56,523 bases of DNA from a virus. The translations under genes and the position numbers were made by a program. Shown here piece after piece: positions 5,292-51,490 of this stretch (its first letter is position 1; each line of letters starts with the position of its first letter). Location: IMG/VR virus record IMGVR_UViG_3300027749_000129, positions 1 through 56,523 of that record; one strand, given 5' to 3'. The notes under the pieces are model-generated. The model saw only the letters and a list, made by a program, of their open reading frames with translations, was not told the DNA's origin and searched no databases.

Positions 5292-5666
5292 ATGACCCTT
5301 GATCCGCGATGCTGCCCCTGTGGTAATCCTCTCCGCCCCTTGCAGCGCAACTGCCTGTCGTGCCATGCCTTGTCCATGCGGAAATACCGTGCGTCCACCC
5401 CCTTGTCAGACGTCCAGCGGGCCAAGGACAATTGTCGGAGTTACGCGCATGTGTACCTTCGTCGTGGCAAGCTAACCCGTGAGCCATGTTCCGTCTGTTC
5501 AAACCCCGTGGCCCAGATGCATCATGCTGACTACGCGAAGCCTTTGCAGATAACGTGGTTGTGCAGACTTTGTCATTTGGCATTGCACAAGACTAAGGCA
5601 GTTGTGCCCAAGCGGCGGCTAGATGTTGCCCAGCGGGATCCTTTTGCACTAGAGACGTCTGTATGA
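5292..5666 (+). CDS. Small HNH-type zinc endonuclease-like protein upstream of terL
   Basis: A 124-residue protein starting at the ATG at 5292, although GGAAGG lies a long 13 bases upstream. Two Cys pairs open the protein (CCPCG and CLSCH); the C-terminal half has EPCSVCSNPVAQMHHADY followed by KPLQITWLCRLCHLALHK. The CxxC...HH...CxxCH layout is that of compact phage HNH nucleases with a treble-clef zinc site. Such proteins often sit next to terminase genes and may assist cos cleavage or act as homing endonucleases. Its stop overlaps the ATG of the large terminase (ATGA). A longer reading frame upstream runs through the repeat region and is not believed. Confidence 0.65.
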   Translation: MTLDPRCCPCGNPLRPLQRNCLSCHALSMRKYRASTPLSDVQRAKDNCRSYAHVYLRRGKLTREPCSVCSNPVAQMHHADYAKPLQITWLCRLCHLALHKTKAVVPKRRLDVAQRDPFALETSV

Positions 5667-8023
5667 CAAACCCTGCAATGTCTGTTGAGTCGGAGTCGGA
5701 GGTATTACGACTTGAGTTACGTCTGGCCCAGATAGAGGCCCAGAGCCGTGCGAAGCGGAACTTTATCGACTTTGCCAAATATGTGTGGCCTGAAGCGATA
5801 TTGGGTAACCACCACCAGAAGATGGCGTCGGCGTTTGACAGGATTGCCAATGGCACGTTGAAGCGTTTGATTGTCAACATGGCACCTCGGCACACGAAGA
5901 GTGAGTTCTCATCCTATCTGTTGCCTGCGTTTATCATGGGCCGTGGCCCGCGAACCAAGATCATTCAAGCGACGCACACGGGGGAGTTGGCGGTACGGTT
6001 TGGTCGTAAGGTGAGGAACCTTATGGATTCTGACTCGTACAAGCAGTTGTTTCCGGGATCGGAGTTGAAGGCTGACAGCAAGGCGGCGGGTCGGTGGGAC
6101 ACGAGTGAGGGTGGGGAGTACTTTGCTGTGGGTGTGGGGGGTGCGATGACGGGCCGTGGTGCGGACTTGTTGATTATTGACGACCCGCATTCGGAGCAGG
6201 ATGCGATGTCGGCATTGGCATTGGACAATGCGTGGGAGTGGTACAGCTCTGGTCCTCGGCAGCGATTGCAGCCGGGCGGGGCAATTGTGATTGTGATGTG
6301 CATGACGGGGGATACTCTGGTTTTGATGTCAGATGGGACACAGACGCCCTTATCTGAAATACGGCCCGGGGATAAGGTAGCTACTTTTGAAAAAGGGAGG
6401 CTAGCCACGGCTAGGGTTAATAACTGGAAGTCAAATGGTTATGACTCCATAGCCAAGATACAAACACAATCTGGTAGAATACTTCGTGCGAATGCAAGAC
6501 ATCCTTTTCTTGTAATGAATGCGGGAGTGTTGGAATGGAAACGAGTAAGCCAGTTGAGAGTGGGGGACGAACTTGTAGTATTGAAGGGTGCAATAGGCCT
6601 CCCAGATCAAAAACAAAACTTGGCAAGTGTGGACCCTGCCAAGCAAGTGCTAGTTACCACCGAAAAAACCCAGACGCTCCATACCACCCCCTTGGCCACC
6701 ACGGCAAATGGAAAGGAAAGACCTGCGGATGCGGTGAACCCGTGCTCTGCAAGGGGTTCTGTGTTAAATGCTACCGAGACCACTATCCCCGTTCAAAGAG
6801 AGCACCCGAGCAAAGCCGCGCCTTGCGTATCAAGTACCGGTATGGAATCACTGTTGGACAATATGAGTGGATGGTTCAAGAGCGTCAAAACCGTTGTGAT
6901 GTCTGCGGTGAAGCGCCTTCAGATAGAAACACTCGGGCGCATTGGAACGGCAAGCTTTGTATTGACCACGACCACGACACGGGAGCAGTGCGAGGACTCC
7001 TGTGCAATGACTGCAACCTCGCCATCGGATATGGCAAGACGCCAGAGGTACTCGAACGAGCTGCAGAGTATCTCCGACTTCACAATCGATCCAATAGCCT
7101 CGATCCTACCTGATGGTAAGGAAGAGGTTTTTGATGTTGAGATTGATAGGACAGGTAATTTCATTGCCAATGGGGTAGTTAGTCACAATACTCGATGGGG
7201 CACGAAGGACCTGACAGCGAGGCTGATCAAATCGCAGTCCAGCCATAATGCTGACCGCTGGGAAGTTATTGAATTCCCTGCCATTTTACCATCAGACAAG
7301 CCCCTTTGGCCAGAGTTTTGGAAGTATGAGGAGTTGATGGGGGTAAAGGCTTCGTTGTCCCCGCAGAAGTGGCAGGCGCAGTGGCAGCAGCAGCCGAGCA
7401 ATGACGAGGGGGCCATTCTGAAGCGGGAGTGGTGGAAGCGTTGGGAGAAGGATTACACGCCTAACCTTGAGTATGTGATTCAGTCGTATGACACGGCGTA
7501 CTCGAAGAAGGAGACGGCTGACTTTTCGGCGATCACGACGTGGGGGGTGTTTTACCCGGATCAGGACAGTGGGGCGCACATCTTGTTGTTGAACGTGAAG
7601 AAGGGCCGGTGGGACTTCCCGGAGTTGAAGCGTGTGGCGAAGGAAGAGTATATCTATTGGCAGCCGGACAATGTGTTGATCGAGGCCAAAGCAACGGGGA
7701 CCACGCTCCAGCAGGAGTTGAGGAAGATGGGGATTCCTGTGACGATGTACTCGCCGGGCGGCAGGCGCGCGGGTCAGGACAAGGTATCGAGGGCCAATGC
7801 GATTGCGACGATATTGGAGTCGGGGATGGTATGGGCACCGGACACTGACTGGGCGGACGAGTTGATTGAGGAGTGTGCGGCGTTCCCGAACGGGGACAAC
7901 GACGACTTGGTGGATTCGATGGTGATGGCGCTGATGCGTTTCAGGGCGGGTAACTTCATTAGTTTGTTGGTGGACGAGGACGATGTGCCGCGTAACGAAG
8001 GTATTGTACCGGAGTATTATTAA
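5663..8023 (+). CDS. terL: Terminase large subunit, interrupted by an intein
   Basis: A 786-residue precursor; removal of the intein (residues 213-509) leaves about 489 residues, a normal size. This is the ATP-driven packaging motor. The ATPase half has a Walker A-like MAPRHTKS (about 73-80) and Walker B LLIIDD (169-174). The intein splits the coupling motif IVIVM|TRWG just after residue 212. The nuclease half has SYDTAYSKKETADFSA, then NVLIEAKATGTTLQQEL, then NDDLVDSMVMAL, supplying the acidic residues of the RNase H-like fold. The ATG overlaps the upstream HNH stop. Residues 291-484 of the precursor are also read in another frame as an endonuclease gene. Confidence 0.93.
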   Translation: MTNPAMSVESESEVLRLELRLAQIEAQSRAKRNFIDFAKYVWPEAILGNHHQKMASAFDRIANGTLKRLIVNMAPRHTKSEFSSYLLPAFIMGRGPRTKIIQATHTGELAVRFGRKVRNLMDSDSYKQLFPGSELKADSKAAGRWDTSEGGEYFAVGVGGAMTGRGADLLIIDDPHSEQDAMSALALDNAWEWYSSGPRQRLQPGGAIVIVMCMTGDTLVLMSDGTQTPLSEIRPGDKVATFEKGRLATARVNNWKSNGYDSIAKIQTQSGRILRANARHPFLVMNAGVLEWKRVSQLRVGDELVVLKGAIGLPDQKQNLASVDPAKQVLVTTEKTQTLHTTPLATTANGKERPADAVNPCSARGSVLNATETTIPVQREHPSKAAPCVSSTGMESLLDNMSGWFKSVKTVVMSAVKRLQIETLGRIGTASFVLTTTTTREQCEDSCAMTATSPSDMARRQRYSNELQSISDFTIDPIASILPDGKEEVFDVEIDRTGNFIANGVVSHNTRWGTKDLTARLIKSQSSHNADRWEVIEFPAILPSDKPLWPEFWKYEELMGVKASLSPQKWQAQWQQQPSNDEGAILKREWWKRWEKDYTPNLEYVIQSYDTAYSKKETADFSAITTWGVFYPDQDSGAHILLLNVKKGRWDFPELKRVAKEEYIYWQPDNVLIEAKATGTTLQQELRKMGIPVTMYSPGGRRAGQDKVSRANAIATILESGMVWAPDTDWADELIEECAAFPNGDNDDLVDSMVMALMRFRAGNFISLLVDEDDVPRNEGIVPEYY
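6523..6537 (+). promoter_or_regulatory. Ribosome binding site of the nested endonuclease gene
   Basis: GGGAG (6523-6527) lies seven bases before the ATG at 6535, well placed for independent initiation inside the terminase intein. It falls within codons for the Hint domain (NAGVLEWK). Confidence 0.7.
6535..7113 (+). CDS. Endonuclease VII-like homing endonuclease nested out of frame in the terL intein
   Basis: A 192-residue protein read in the -1 frame relative to the terminase gene and lying wholly inside the intein. The N-terminal part has zinc-finger Cys pairs (CSIEGC, CGPC, CGCGEPVLC, CVKC). The C-terminal part is a complete Endonuclease_7 domain: YGITVGQYEWMVQ, CDVCG, then CIDHDHDTGAVRGLLCNDCN. 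This keeps both zinc pairs, the DHxH catalytic residues and the CN of T4 endonuclease VII. It has its own Shine-Dalgarno. The first 12 or so codons overprint genuine Hint sequence (WKRVSQLRVGDEL), and the stop lies just before block F. Inferred role: cutting intein-less terL genes to spread the intein. Confidence 0.85.
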   Translation: METSKPVESGGRTCSIEGCNRPPRSKTKLGKCGPCQASASYHRKNPDAPYHPLGHHGKWKGKTCGCGEPVLCKGFCVKCYRDHYPRSKRAPEQSRALRIKYRYGITVGQYEWMVQERQNRCDVCGEAPSDRNTRAHWNGKLCIDHDHDTGAVRGLLCNDCNLAIGYGKTPEVLERAAEYLRLHNRSNSLDPT

Positions 8024-32088: not shown

Positions 32089-32113
32089 CATGTATACCGA
32101 TCCTAAAATAAGG

Positions 32114-32121
32114 TGTATACT
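32114..32121 (+). promoter_or_regulatory. Possible -10 box of the HNH-AP2 gene
   Basis: TGTATACT, an extended -10-like sequence, is preceded by the same TGTATAC at 32091-32097. It sits 29 bases before the HNH-AP2 start. No good -35 box is found, so it is only suggestive. Confidence 0.3.
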
Positions 32122-32149
32122 AAAGGCTCTTCTACTTAAGGGGCTTAGT

Positions 32150-32788
32150 ATGGGTAAATTTATAGATCGCGTAGGGCAGCGGTTTGGGAAACTAGTAGTA
32201 ATTGCGCGCAGCGGCACTAACGTACACAAGCAAGTTATGTGGCTATGTACTTGTGATTGTGGAGAAAAAACCACTGTAGTTTCTGGGAGTTTGGTGACAG
32301 GTAATACTACTTCCTGTGGATGCATCCCCCCAAACTTTAAACACGGAGGGTGGAATAAGTCTTCCTACAACACATGGCGGGCAATGATGCGGCGTTGTTA
32401 TAACCCCATAGATAAGGACTACGCGCGATACGGGAGTAAAGGGGTTACTGTATATGCTCTTTGGCATGATTATGCCGCTTTCGCAATAGCTGTTGGTGAG
32501 CCGTCAGGCACTGAAACCCTTGACCGGATTGACACAACGGGTAACTACGAGCCTAACAATGTGCGCTGGGCAAGCCCTACCGCGCAAGCTAGAAACCAGT
32601 GCATGTCAAAGCTAAATAAGACAGGTTTCGCTGGTGTTTTATTCCACGGTGGACGCTATTACGCAGCGATAACAGTGCAAAAGAAAAAGTTTTATTCCAA
32701 AGTATTTGGGACAGCAGAAGAAGCTGCTGCCGCTAGAAAAGGATTAGAGATGCTGCATTGGGGAGTCTTAAATGAGCAAAATCACTAA
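32150..32788 (+). CDS. HNH homing endonuclease with AP2 DNA-binding domain
   Basis: A 212-residue protein. The ATG at 32150 has AAGGGG six bases upstream. RVGQRFGKLVVIARSGTN, then WLCTCDCGEKTTV, SYNTWRAMMRRCYNPIDKDY, GVTVYALWHDYAAF, ETLDRIDTTGNYEPNNVRWA and NQC form the HNH part of the phage family with a zinc CxCxCG. The C-terminus, TGFAGVLFHGGRYYAAITVQ and EEAAAARKGLEM, is an AP2-type beta-sheet DNA-binding domain. Its last 17 bases overlap the next small virion gene. It resembles free-standing homing endonucleases inserted next to conserved genes. Confidence 0.85.
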   Translation: MGKFIDRVGQRFGKLVVIARSGTNVHKQVMWLCTCDCGEKTTVVSGSLVTGNTTSCGCIPPNFKHGGWNKSSYNTWRAMMRRCYNPIDKDYARYGSKGVTVYALWHDYAAFAIAVGEPSGTETLDRIDTTGNYEPNNVRWASPTAQARNQCMSKLNKTGFAGVLFHGGRYYAAITVQKKKFYSKVFGTAEEAAAARKGLEMLHWGVLNEQNH

Positions 32789-47325: not shown

Positions 47326-48824
47326 TGGCCATCCATAAAATATTCGGTCCCCCCGGATCCGGCAAGACTACATACCTGCTCGACATTGTTGAGCAGGAAC
47401 TTGCTGTTGTGCACCCAATGTCCATTGGATACTTTGCTTTCACACGCAAGGCATCCCTCGAGGCAAAGGAACGTGCCACTGCAAAGTTTCCGCACCTAAA
47501 TCCTGATACCGACTTCCCGTGGTTTCGCACGCTCCACAGTCTGGCGTACCAGTGCCTTGGCGTCAGCAACAAAGACATCATGAAGCCTGAGAATTACCGT
47601 GAGTTTGCCGCACAGGCCGGTATTACCATGGGGCCACTTGTCAGTGATGAAGACGATTGTGTCGTCCACGCCGATAATCCAATACTGAACGAGATCAACA
47701 TCGCGCGCATCAAGGGCCTTGATCTGCACACACACTACAACCAAAGCCAGATGGGCATCGAGTGGCACCACTTTGAATACGTCGAGCGCGCGTATCGCCA
47801 CTTCAAAGAGAACGCAGGACTGCTGGACTTTACCGATCTGCTGGAATTGATCAACGCGCAACCTGAGCGACTGCCCAAGCTAACCGTGGTCATCCTTGAC
47901 GAGGCACAGGACTTGTCCGCACTGCAGTGGACCCTTGTACAGAACCTTATGAAGAGGGCTACTCGCTCATTCATTGCAGGCGATGACGATCAGGCTGTTT
48001 ACATGTGGGCAGGTGCAGACGTAGACAGCTTTCTGAATTGCGAGGGCGATATCCGCGTCCTGCAGCAATCGTATCGTGTACCTGCACGCGTCCATGCGCT
48101 AGCCACTCAAGTCGTACAACGCATTCGTAAGCGTCAACCTAAATTCTGGAACTCCCGTGAGGTAGAGGGCAATATCACCTATTATCGCGACTACATGCAT
48201 GTGGATATCTCTACCGGAGAGTGGCTGATACTGGCGTCAGCCAATTACATGCTTAATGATCTGTATGGCTGGATAAAGTCACAGGGAATACTCTTCGAGC
48301 GTCACGGACAACGGAGCATTGCTGAAGCCACACTCGCCGCCGTAATCGGCTGGGAGTCCCTGCGCAAGGGACGATCCATAAACTACCCCACGCTCAAACA
48401 CATTTATAAATACCTTAATTCAGATTTCATCGCACGCGGGCATAAGACACTACGCGAGGCGGATCCAGAAGCACTCTTTACGCTTGATGATTTAAAAGCA
48501 CGCCATGGACTATTAACTGATAGCATCTGGCACGAAGCACTGACTAAGATCGGTGCAGAAAAGATAGACTACATCATTGCCATATTACGCCGGGGCACGA
48601 AACTCACTGGCAAGGTGCAAGTAAAACTGTCCACGATCCACGGAGCAAAAGGGGGAGAGGCGGATAACGTCTTGCTCTTCACGGACCTGAGCCCAAAGTT
48701 TGCTAAGGACTATGACCATAACGCGGATGATATAAATCGACTGCTGTACGTGGGAATTACCCGTACACGGGAGACACTGCACATCATCCATCCCAAGGAC
48801 ATACGAAAGGCCTTTAGATTTTGA
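47325..48824 (+). CDS. UvrD/Rep-type superfamily 1 helicase
   Basis: A 499-residue helicase with a GTG start overlapping the primase stop. Motifs: GPPGSGKTTYLL (Walker A), FAFTRKASLEAKERA (Ia), FRTLHSLAYQCLG, VVILDEAQDLSALQW (motif II), FIAGDDDQAVYMWAGA (motif III), VKLSTIHGAKGGEADNVLLF (motif V) and RLLYVGITRTRETLHI (motif VI). It should translocate 3' to 5' on single-stranded DNA for replication or repair. Its stop overlaps the polymerase start. Confidence 0.9.
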   Translation: MAIHKIFGPPGSGKTTYLLDIVEQELAVVHPMSIGYFAFTRKASLEAKERATAKFPHLNPDTDFPWFRTLHSLAYQCLGVSNKDIMKPENYREFAAQAGITMGPLVSDEDDCVVHADNPILNEINIARIKGLDLHTHYNQSQMGIEWHHFEYVERAYRHFKENAGLLDFTDLLELINAQPERLPKLTVVILDEAQDLSALQWTLVQNLMKRATRSFIAGDDDQAVYMWAGADVDSFLNCEGDIRVLQQSYRVPARVHALATQVVQRIRKRQPKFWNSREVEGNITYYRDYMHVDISTGEWLILASANYMLNDLYGWIKSQGILFERHGQRSIAEATLAAVIGWESLRKGRSINYPTLKHIYKYLNSDFIARGHKTLREADPEALFTLDDLKARHGLLTDSIWHEALTKIGAEKIDYIIAILRRGTKLTGKVQVKLSTIHGAKGGEADNVLLFTDLSPKFAKDYDHNADDINRLLYVGITRTRETLHIIHPKDIRKAFRF

Positions 48825-51490
48825 AAACTAACATACCGCTGTTCCCGATCCAGTCCGAATGGCTCCCGCCACTGGATTTTCCTGACTTGTCCGAAGCAAA
48901 AGAAATCGCTATCGACTTGGAGACCTGTGATCCCAACATGGAGAAGTACGGACCCGGTTGGCCACGCAAGGATGGTTTTGTCGTGGGCTACGCTGTTGCA
49001 GTGGATGGATGGAAGGGTTATTACCCTATCGCGCACGCAGGCGGCGGTAATTTAGACAAACGAATCGTCGAGCGTTGGATCACCAAGATCCTACTACTGC
49101 CCTGCGACAAGGTCATGCACAACGCTGCCTACGATGTTGGCTGGCTTCGCGCATCAGGCTTCACGGTCAACGGACGTATTATCGACACCATGATCGCTGC
49201 CGCATTGATAGACGAGAACCGGTTCAGTTATGCGCTCAACAGTCTGGGCTACGATTACCTTAAAGAGACCAAGTCAGAGCAGGGGCTACGAGACGCTGCA
49301 GCCGATTTCGGATTGCACCCTAAGAAGGAGCTGTGGAAACTCCCCGCGATGTATGTGGGTGCTTACGCGGAACAGGATGCTGCTCTTACGCTAAAGCTCT
49401 GGCATCACTTCCAAATCCTAATGCGCGACGAAGAAGTCGAATCCATTTTCAATCTGGAAACAGAGCTATTGCCTATCCTGATCGATATTACCTTTCGCGG
49501 TATCCGGTTTGACCGTGACAGAGCCATAGCTTTGATTACCGAAATGAAACACAAAGAGAAAAAGTTATTAACGTACATCAAGGATGTTTCAGGGGTACCC
49601 GTGGACATGTGGGCCGCTGCAACAATCGCTAAAGCCTTCGACAAACTAAACATCCCCTACCCACAGACTACGACCGGACTGCCCAGCTTTACCAAGTCAT
49701 TCCTTGATACGTGCGAGCATCCTATTGCCAAGGCCATCATGGAAGCACGCGAGCTGAACAAGACCTACGGCACGTTCCTGCAGCCCTACATCGATTTCTC
49801 TGCCCACGATGGGCGCATCCACGCGCATATCAACCAACTGCGCTCTGATGACGGCGGCACGGTGACAGGCAGGCTATCCATGGCATCGCCGAACCTCCAA
49901 CAAGTGCCAGCCCGGCACGAAATCATCGGACCCATGGTGCGCTCACTCTTTCTGCCAGAAGAAGGACAGCACTGGGCAGCCTGTGACTTTTCATCACAAG
50001 AGCCACGCTTGTTGGTGCATTACGCTAACCTGCTCCAGCTTGACGGAGCACGCGACATGGCCCAAGCCTACATCACAGATATCGATACCGACTTCCATCA
50101 GATGATCGCCGACATGGCAGGCATCAAACGCAAGGTAGCTAAAACGATTGGCTTGGGTCTTTGCATTGCGCAGGGCGAAATGGTCCTTACCGATAGTGGC
50201 CTTGTTCCAATCCAACAGGTAACGGAATTGCATAAAGTATGGGATGGGGTAGAATGGGTATCACATGAGGGAGTGTTTTTCATGGGAACCAAAGAGGTTA
50301 TTACCTATGGCAATCTCACAGCAACACCGGACCATGACGTCTGGACAAACGAATCAGGGAAAATTTCTCTCCGGCTCGCAGCATCAAGATTGGATGCACT
50401 TGTTTCCACCGGAAATGCGGAACAGGCAATTCGGTATGTGGACCGTGATCAGCAGGGTGGTTCAGCGAACAGGAAAACATCAGTACGCGAAAGTGCGATG
50501 CGTTTGTGGGGCCGAGGATTGGAAGCTCTTGGACAACCTCAAAAGTGGAAAGTCAACTATGTGCCGACCATGCACTATGCGCAAGCAGCATGCGGGACGA
50601 GGGCACTTGATTGTAAAATCCATCGAGATGAAGTCACTGCAAAGAAGGGCTACGGCGGCTATGCAGAGATGCCAAAACCCCAAGGACAGAGGCTGGAAAC
50701 ACTATGGTGGCCGTGGAATTCAATGCGAGTTTTCCTCCGTAAAGGCCTTTGTGGAATATCTGCTGTCCTTGCACCCTGCTTCGGACTGGTTGGGAATGAC
50801 CATAGACCGGACCAACAACGAGGGAAACTACGCAGTGGGAAACCTCCGAATAGCTTCTTACCGAGAAAACAACCTGAACAGAAGAAATACGCGAAAGTCT
50901 ATGACATCATAAACGCTGGCCCCCGCCATCGGTTTACCGTGTCTAATGTCTTGGTGTCTAACTGCTACGGCATGGGCAAGGGCAAACTCGCCGTACAGCT
51001 CGGCCTACCCGTAGAGGATGCCTCCGAACTGATCACCACCTTTCACCGTAAGGTACCGTTCCTAAAGGGCACCATAGACGCCGTGATGAAGGCCATCGAA
51101 CGCCCCGCCAGTGGGGGCAGCATACGCACGCTACTCGGACGCAAATGCCGCTTCCCACTCTGGGAACCCACCGAATGGGGCGTACACAAGGCACTGCCGT
51201 ACGAAGAAGCCACCGCGAAATACGGCCCACGGATCAAGCGTGCAATGACCTACAAGGGGCTTAACAAACTCCTGCAAGGCAGTGCTGCTGACCAGACTAA
51301 AGCTGCAATGGTCGCGCTCCACAAAGCGGGTTTCACTCTATTATTACAGGTACATGACGAGATTGCGGTCAGTGTGTCCACGCCTGAAGAAGCACGCACC
51401 GCTGCTGACATAATGGTCGCCGCAGTCAAGCTCACCGTGCCCTCCAAGGCCGATATGGAAATAGGTCCCTCATGGGGCAGCGCAAAATAA
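48821..51490 (+). CDS. polA: Family A DNA polymerase, interrupted by an intein
   Basis: An 889-residue precursor; splicing out residues 448-714 leaves about 622 residues. A TTG start overlaps the helicase stop. The exonuclease half has AIDLETCDP (D32, E34) and VMHNAAYDVGWLRA. The polymerase half has ACDFSSQEPRLL (motif A, D389), RKVAKTIGLGL|CYGMGKGKLA (motif B, the O-helix, split by the intein just before Cys) and LLLQVHDEIAVS (motif C, H845, D846). All catalytic residues are present. Residues about 496-697 of the precursor are also read in another frame as an HNH endonuclease gene. Confidence 0.93.
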   Translation: MKTNIPLFPIQSEWLPPLDFPDLSEAKEIAIDLETCDPNMEKYGPGWPRKDGFVVGYAVAVDGWKGYYPIAHAGGGNLDKRIVERWITKILLLPCDKVMHNAAYDVGWLRASGFTVNGRIIDTMIAAALIDENRFSYALNSLGYDYLKETKSEQGLRDAAADFGLHPKKELWKLPAMYVGAYAEQDAALTLKLWHHFQILMRDEEVESIFNLETELLPILIDITFRGIRFDRDRAIALITEMKHKEKKLLTYIKDVSGVPVDMWAAATIAKAFDKLNIPYPQTTTGLPSFTKSFLDTCEHPIAKAIMEARELNKTYGTFLQPYIDFSAHDGRIHAHINQLRSDDGGTVTGRLSMASPNLQQVPARHEIIGPMVRSLFLPEEGQHWAACDFSSQEPRLLVHYANLLQLDGARDMAQAYITDIDTDFHQMIADMAGIKRKVAKTIGLGLCIAQGEMVLTDSGLVPIQQVTELHKVWDGVEWVSHEGVFFMGTKEVITYGNLTATPDHDVWTNESGKISLRLAASRLDALVSTGNAEQAIRYVDRDQQGGSANRKTSVRESAMRLWGRGLEALGQPQKWKVNYVPTMHYAQAACGTRALDCKIHRDEVTAKKGYGGYAEMPKPQGQRLETLWWPWNSMRVFLRKGLCGISAVLAPCFGLVGNDHRPDQQRGKLRSGKPPNSFLPRKQPEQKKYAKVYDIINAGPRHRFTVSNVLVSNCYGMGKGKLAVQLGLPVEDASELITTFHRKVPFLKGTIDAVMKAIERPASGGSIRTLLGRKCRFPLWEPTEWGVHKALPYEEATAKYGPRIKRAMTYKGLNKLLQGSAADQTKAAMVALHKAGFTLLLQVHDEIAVSVSTPEEARTAADIMVAAVKLTVPSKADMEIGPSWGSAK
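50162..50962 (+). other. Intein (Hint domain) in the DNA polymerase
   Basis: A 267-residue intein. Cys1 begins CIAQGEMVLTDSGLVPIQQV (block A). Block B is GNLTATPDHDVWT with the TxxH motif. The C-terminus is KVYDIINAGPRHRFTV (block F) and NVLVSN (block G), with Asn267 and Cys as the +1 residue. The penultimate residue is Ser instead of the usual His, which some inteins tolerate. Between the blocks, the host frame gives about 170 residues without any homing endonuclease motif (for example TSVRESAMRLWGRGLEALGQ). The other frame there encodes an HNH protein. Confidence 0.87.
50307..50912 (+). CDS. HNH homing endonuclease nested out of frame in the polymerase intein
   Basis: About 201 residues in the +1 frame relative to the polymerase. 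The ATG at 50307 has AAAGAGG nine bases upstream; an in-frame ATG at 50265 is an alternative with a weaker site. Motifs follow the free-standing HNH family: NRQFGMWTVISRVVQRTG, KVRCVCGAEDWKLLDNLKSG, RATAAMQRCQNPKDRGWKHYGGRGIQC in parts, then MTIDRTNNEGNYAVGNLRIA and ENNLNRRNT. This matches the HNH-AP2 protein at 32150 in its nuclease part but lacks the AP2 domain. The first 35 or so codons overprint Hint block B. Inferred role: homing of the intein. Confidence 0.8.
   Translation: MAISQQHRTMTSGQTNQGKFLSGSQHQDWMHLFPPEMRNRQFGMWTVISRVVQRTGKHQYAKVRCVCGAEDWKLLDNLKSGKSTMCRPCTMRKQHAGRGHLIVKSIEMKSLQRRATAAMQRCQNPKDRGWKHYGGRGIQCEFSSVKAFVEYLLSLHPASDWLGMTIDRTNNEGNYAVGNLRIASYRENNLNRRNTRKSMTS

Follow-up and report, generated by a model that had tools for sequence, protein, structure and literature searches.

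A phage DNA polymerase intein that probably carries its homing endonuclease as an overlapping gene

Accounts of inteins present the homing endonuclease as a domain joined in frame to the splicing domain. The DNA polymerase gene in IMG/VR virus record IMGVR_UViG_3300027749_000129 (positions 1 to 56,523; this whole stretch of 56,523 nucleotides is called the window below) raises the question of whether splicing and mobility can also be encoded by two overlapping genes: its intein has splicing blocks in the polymerase (host) frame and an HNH-type endonuclease gene in the +1 frame. We think it highly probable that the element is a splicing mini-intein whose homing endonuclease arises by internal initiation on the polymerase mRNA. 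Judged from the sequences, there are two open frames under opposite selection, conserved start signals, recurrence in many phages and horizontal transfer. The polymerase and terminase features described here lie on the + strand.

The polymerase gene, polA (48821-51490), has a TTG start, is open throughout and encodes an 889-amino-acid precursor of a family A polymerase (Pfam DNA_pol_A, 1.5e-49, plus a 3'-5' exonuclease). Its exteins (48821-50161 and 50963-51490) flank an intein of 267 amino acids in the polymerase frame (50162-50962), located in motif B (KTIGLGL/C...N/CYGMG, slashes marking the intein edges). The edges were set by alignment to the intein-free polymerase of phage DSL-LC04, which reads KTIGLGL/MYGMG. 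All class 1 intein residues are present in the window: Cys1 at 50162, the block B TxxH motif (TPDH, 50324-50335), and blocks F and G (AGPRHRF within 50897-50941) with a terminal Asn followed by Cys at +1 (VLVSN/C, up to 50962). The first-pass annotation of this DNA had assigned these splicing blocks to the host frame, and the motifs stand where it put them and are conserved in 52 relatives. C1, T55, H58, D248 and N267 are conserved across this set; C1, the terminal Asn and the +1 residue served in picking the relatives, and the unbiased residues are T55, H58, G253 and R257.

In an AlphaFold model of the host-frame intein, the N-terminal blocks A and B (50162-50401; approximately residues 1-80) and the C-terminal blocks F and G (50879-50962; approximately residues 240-267, with VYDIINAGPRHRFTV at 50897-50941 and VLVSN at 50948-50962) are confidently predicted (predicted local distance difference test, pLDDT, >90) and adopt a HINT fold, and the linker is mostly disordered. 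The top Foldseek matches of this model are inteins or Hint domains (probability 1.00, E-values 0.002 or worse), and a profile of the 52 relatives matches inteins in the PDB. The drifting linker (50402-50878, its end approximate) has the nuclease core in its +1 frame. It had been noted as lacking any recognisable domain, and searches of the host-frame intein against the PHROG, Pfam and NCBIfam profile libraries gave no domain beyond the N-terminal splicing block. Residues and model together point to a class 1 intein with a HINT splicing domain, which would leave the polymerase by protein splicing.

One base on, the +1 frame is open from 50265 to 50912. The start common to relatives is the ATG at 50307; the upstream ATG at 50265 was rejected as a start, as relatives carry stops there. 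The resulting gene (50307-50912, stop TAA at 50910-50912) encodes 201 amino acids and corresponds to the HNH-type gene first proposed at about 50307-50912. The motifs named at that time (RCVCG, RCQNPKD, DRTNNEGNYAVGN and ENNLNRRN) were all found, and the protein matches the PHROG HNH endonuclease families phrog_374 (E=1.2e-28) and phrog_3377 (3.6e-17). Its motifs run in the order two cysteine pairs, YGGRGI, DR...Y...GN and N..N. The cysteine pairs form a putative zinc ribbon (50499-50573; CVCG at 50499-50510, CRPC at 50562-50573), all four cysteines being invariant in 48 relatives, and the presumed catalytic part (50703-50879) comprises YGGRGI from 50703, DRTNNEGNYAVGN at 50805-50843 and ENNLN at 50865-50879. 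Across the same 48 relatives Y133, R136, G137, R168, Y175 and N179 are invariant, and Pfam HNH_3 matches one of them; DR stands where canonical HNH nucleases have DH. A profile of the nested family against the PDB gave its best matches, both weak, to PacI (E 0.03) and I-HmuI (E 0.28) at the DR...Y...N motif, where DR aligns with the DR of PacI. The predicted structure has a mean pLDDT of 84. The nested product thus belongs, by its motifs and profile matches, to a PHROG family of HNH-type endonucleases, with catalytic residues that are presumed, and its role in homing, namely cleavage of the intein-free allele that drives transfer, is putative.

The start of this gene appears to be shaped by selection. 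A Shine-Dalgarno-like AAAGAGG (50291-50297) lies nine bases before ATG 50307, as first observed, and the pair is conserved in +1 inteins from uncultivated, Streptococcus and Gardnerella phages, the motif reading AAAGAGG, AAGGAGG, AAAAAGG or AGAGAGG. The ATG consists of the last two bases of a host Tyr codon, TAT, and the G after it. This Tyr is encoded by TAT in 59 of 66 +1 inteins, as against 283 of 698 extein Tyr codons (P=4e-15), and an ATG occupies the position in 57 of 85 +1 inteins but in none of 68 inteins with the nuclease in the +2 frame (P=5e-21); both P values are too small, because related sequences are not independent. The codon choice is, on this evidence, selected for the nested ATG. 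Several relatives also have nuclease-frame stops just upstream of the ATG. Pairing with the anti-Shine-Dalgarno sequence at this position is strong in +1 inteins and weak in +2 inteins, and for the latter class the comparison gained little or nothing; their start, an ATG, a GTG or in one case a TTG, falls at a different conserved position, within WDGVEWV.

Selection on the two frames was compared by omega, for which changes were tallied, in the manner of OLGenie, according to what they do in each frame. Within the linker, omega is 0.17-0.40 for the nuclease frame in five groups of relatives, 0.84-1.03 for the host frame in four of them (0.53 in the small Jersey/Dhillon set) and >1.2 for the third frame, values from counts that ignore multiple hits and the shared ancestry of pairs, so that the argument rests on the contrasts and not on absolute values. 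The N-extein has the opposite pattern. In the group of the window, omega for the host and nuclease frames, respectively, is 0.22 and 0.80 before the ATG, 0.23 and 0.20 in block B past the ATG, 0.88 and 0.30 in the linker, and 0.23 and 0.71 in the last 30 amino acids of the intein. Thus, the +1 frame comes under constraint from about the ATG onward. For the +2 class, nuclease-frame constraint in block B was not significant (0.82). When the nuclease was recoded synonymously, the host frame stayed open in <0.1% of trials for the window (P<0.001) and for the majority of +1 relatives; no tested locus exceeded 5%. A chance open reading frame was rejected by these selection and recoding tests; the nested gene is not an accident, because selection on the two frames is opposite, the host frame is open despite the recoding odds, and 153 of 158 distinct viral inteins have the same layout.

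The extent of this recurrence was assessed with the nested protein as a tblastn query, which matched 341 phage records, the best matches lying inside DNA polymerase genes. Open polymerase inteins with an out-of-frame HNH gene were found in the +1 frame in Streptococcus and Gardnerella phages, and in the +2 frame in Vibrio, Pseudomonas, Salmonella, E. coli and enhanced biological phosphorus removal (EBPR) phages. Two separate scans of viral contigs followed, one with the nuclease and one with the host-frame N-terminal splicing block. Among 158 distinct viral inteins the nuclease is in +1 in 85, in +2 in 68, in frame in none, and absent from 5. The splicing-block scan alone gave 160 loci, 154 with an out-of-frame HNH (95 in +1, 59 in +2) and 6 without, in three of which the intein runs off the contig or its C-terminus was not found. 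Bacterial genomes (Bacillota, Actinomycetota, Spirochaetota, Synergistota and others) contributed 53 more in +1 and 16 without a nuclease, 11 of the latter being intact mini-inteins of 121-140 amino acids. The queries were built from nested inteins, and these proportions therefore hold for this family and not for inteins at large. Within it, the nested layout is the norm: well over 100 further phages and prophages have it, which suggests a widespread means of carrying the mobility gene of an intein that has gone largely unnoticed. The first-pass annotation was right and understated: purifying selection on the nuclease frame, which it had asked for in relatives, is strong in five groups, and beyond its claims the layout is the family norm, a +2 class exists and the second case in the window, described below, has a nuclease of the endonuclease VII family.

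Most insertions fall at one of several adjacent positions within motif B of PolA; the others are at other PolA sites and in helicase-like genes, host gene names at unusual sites being judged from flanking motifs. Such unusual sites (other PolA motifs, helicase-like genes) are occupied in L078, L148, L186, L279, L289 and L293. The polymerases of L187, L193 and L205 hold two inteins of the family at different sites, in L205 a mini-intein and a nested one. Accounting for the two nuclease frames requires two frame changes on the nuclease tree and five on the poorly resolved splicing-domain tree. At the YGGK/CVEN polymerase site, the inteins of L219, L235, L245, L247 and L251 have splicing blocks like those of the +2 class and a nuclease in +1, and the frame has therefore probably switched more than once.

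The intein also moves between phages. Relative to L017, the nearest relative, the intein DNA of the window is 87.3% identical and the flanks 67-69.5%, with sharp edges; since the intein DNA is far more alike than its flanks, horizontal transfer is indicated. Likewise, SP-101 (Salmonella) and AV129 (E. coli) are 83% identical in the intein versus 66-67% in the flanks, and E. coli phage Hrm2, whose polymerase is 91% identical to the SP-101 exteins, has an empty allele. At L204 (2501-2872) we found a natural nuclease-free mini-intein, in which the nuclease core was removed by a 555-nucleotide in-frame deletion with breakpoints in 9-bp repeats, copies of ATCATCAGC. The intein of the window and L017 sits five codons from that of the close relatives L014, L015, L016 and L018, in the same polymerase motif. 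It is as if the polA element could shift between neighbouring sites.

In the mechanism that we favour, the mobile intein would consist of two overlapping genes on one DNA stretch. The host frame would supply a small HINT splicing domain and, between its blocks, a long passive linker; this intein would remove itself from the polymerase after translation. The linker DNA read one base on would encode a zinc-ribbon HNH-type homing endonuclease. Ribosomes starting at ATG 50307 on the polymerase mRNA would make the nuclease as a separate protein; it would cut intein-free polymerase genes, and repair off the intein-bearing copy would spread the whole element. Several points weigh against this proposal. 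We infer three of its steps, namely that the intein splices, that the nuclease is translated and that the nuclease cleaves the empty site, and horizontal transfer shows mobility, not that the nested nuclease drives it. Pfam gave no match for the nested nuclease of the window, and Foldseek on its model gave no significant match, the one to PacI included. Pfam and NCBIfam models also fail to recognise the isolated polA intein; one relative (L230) matches intein_Nterm weakly (9.6e-4, under the cut-off). No defining residue is absent from the polA intein, and this miss is a sensitivity limit of the curated models.

The same miss would be expected if the insertion were never spliced and stayed in the polymerase as a loop, with only the nested HNH mattering, and there is a published example, the ShiLan element, in which a phage methylase harbours an HNH gene out of frame and no splicing domain (PMC11855218). 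We judge such a loop very improbable here: the host frame retains blocks A, B, F and G under purifying selection, a HINT fold is predicted, the insertion splits the catalytic O-helix motif of the polymerase, and the splicing part alone is retained in mini-inteins. Splicing at the RNA level, by a group I intron with an HNH gene, has a parallel in that phage group I introns often carry HNH nucleases, as does one in a phage DNA polymerase gene (PMC3428280). This is scarcely credible for polA, given that Rfam yielded no match at E up to 1 within 49900-51300 and no ribozyme core, that the host frame is stop-free and that the splicing-block codons are selected as protein.

Other alternatives accept the nested gene and differ in how it is expressed or what it does. 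The two frames overlap from block B onward, and programmed frameshifting from the polymerase frame could fuse the nuclease to the N-terminal half of the intein. We consider this quite unlikely in view of the conserved Shine-Dalgarno sequence and ATG, the selection on the start codon, the nuclease-frame stops right before it in several relatives, and the confinement of +1-frame constraint to the region past it. A frameshift in the sequence itself was rejected, as the host open reading frame is uninterrupted here and open in practically all relatives; nothing places the HNH in the polymerase frame, and at L357, the only "+0" locus, the gene is frameshifted. Phage HNH proteins have other roles, which leaves a small but real chance that the nested nuclease is genuine and mobile but co-opted, for instance in excluding competing phages or in packaging, with homing lost. 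The travel of the intein as a sharp-edged unit, its patchy distribution and the conservation of the nuclease frame and presumed catalytic residues speak against this, although movement and conservation are compatible with a double role.

A second nested layout in this genome had been proposed for the terminase gene (5663-8023), and it holds: the terminase intein (6299-7189, in the host frame; Pfam Intein_splicing 7.4e-16) contains an open reading frame at 6535-7113 in +2 that matches Pfam Endonuclease_7 (3.5e-19). Terminases of Chandler, Phlyer, Vincenzo and Angelicage (mycobacteriophage and Gordonia phage) share an intein with a +2 endonuclease VII frame. In the work of Kelley et al. (2016, PMC5050341), the Chandler terminase intein splices in E. 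coli, a supporting analogue of like layout, and endonuclease activity is linked to identifiable homing endonuclease (HEN) domains of two other TerL inteins. The HNH protein near 32150, suggested for comparison, is encoded by a free-standing gene (32090-32788) of the same PHROG family as the nested nuclease, at 28% identity.

Taken together, it is likely that in a large class of phage inteins the homing endonuclease is an overlapping gene translated on its own, that this arrangement has at least two separate origins involving unrelated nucleases (HNH for polymerase and helicase-like genes, endonuclease VII for terminase inteins), and that many inteins described as "splicing domains only" are in fact mobile. 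If unrelated nucleases do lie in an overlapping frame, splicing and cutting would be separate proteins from one DNA stretch. In an entire lineage, spread over phages with Gram-negative and with Gram-positive hosts, the genes overlap under opposite selection in two frames, a long overlap with a likely function for both. The layout would account for phage inteins annotated with splicing domains only and predicts hidden nucleases there, and cultured Salmonella and E. coli phages offer both intein-bearing and empty polymerase alleles for testing.

Several known systems resemble the polA intein in part. Like it, the ShiLan element, the closest published case, has an out-of-frame HNH-type nuclease in an insertion open in the host frame, with signs of homing; it lies in a methylase, starts at GTG and has no detectable Shine-Dalgarno sequence or splicing domain (Genes 2025, PMC11855218), whereas the polA element has splicing blocks under selection, as in a real intein, and a Shine-Dalgarno sequence with ATG. 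On out-of-frame HNH genes, literature searches turned up the ShiLan work and one genome note and nothing else; a preprint on non-canonical actinobacteriophage inteins (Gosselin et al., 2025) lies outside that coverage, and given this preprint, priority for out-of-frame intein endonucleases is uncertain. The TerL6-f inteins (Chandler gp6, PMC5050341) are homologous to the terminase intein of the window, with the out-of-frame (+2) endonuclease VII frame and splicing in E. coli, but their host gene and the family of their nuclease are not those of the polA intein; the parts of Kelley et al. (2016) searched yielded no mention of the nested frame. The Jerseyvirus DNA polymerase intein (vB_SenS-Ent1, HE775250) belongs to the same family, with a nested HNH in +2 (relatives L007 and L061), and its record labels it "intein, encoding splicing domains" only, the HNH being unannotated. 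For the nuclease, PacI and I-HmuI, HNH enzymes with solved structures, are the nearest PDB profile matches. Fractured genes with split inteins and a free-standing endonuclease were reportedly described by Dassa and colleagues in 2009. There too the endonuclease is a separate protein tied to an intein, but the host gene is in two pieces, whereas polA is one open frame overlapping the endonuclease gene. Finally, bifunctional inteins of the PI-SceI type share with the polA intein a HINT domain interrupted by an endonuclease-coding region, at a conserved site of the host protein. Their endonuclease lies within the intein polypeptide in the same frame, an arrangement seen in 0 of the 158 viral inteins, whereas that of the polA intein would be a separate protein from another frame, opposite an in-frame linker without a domain.
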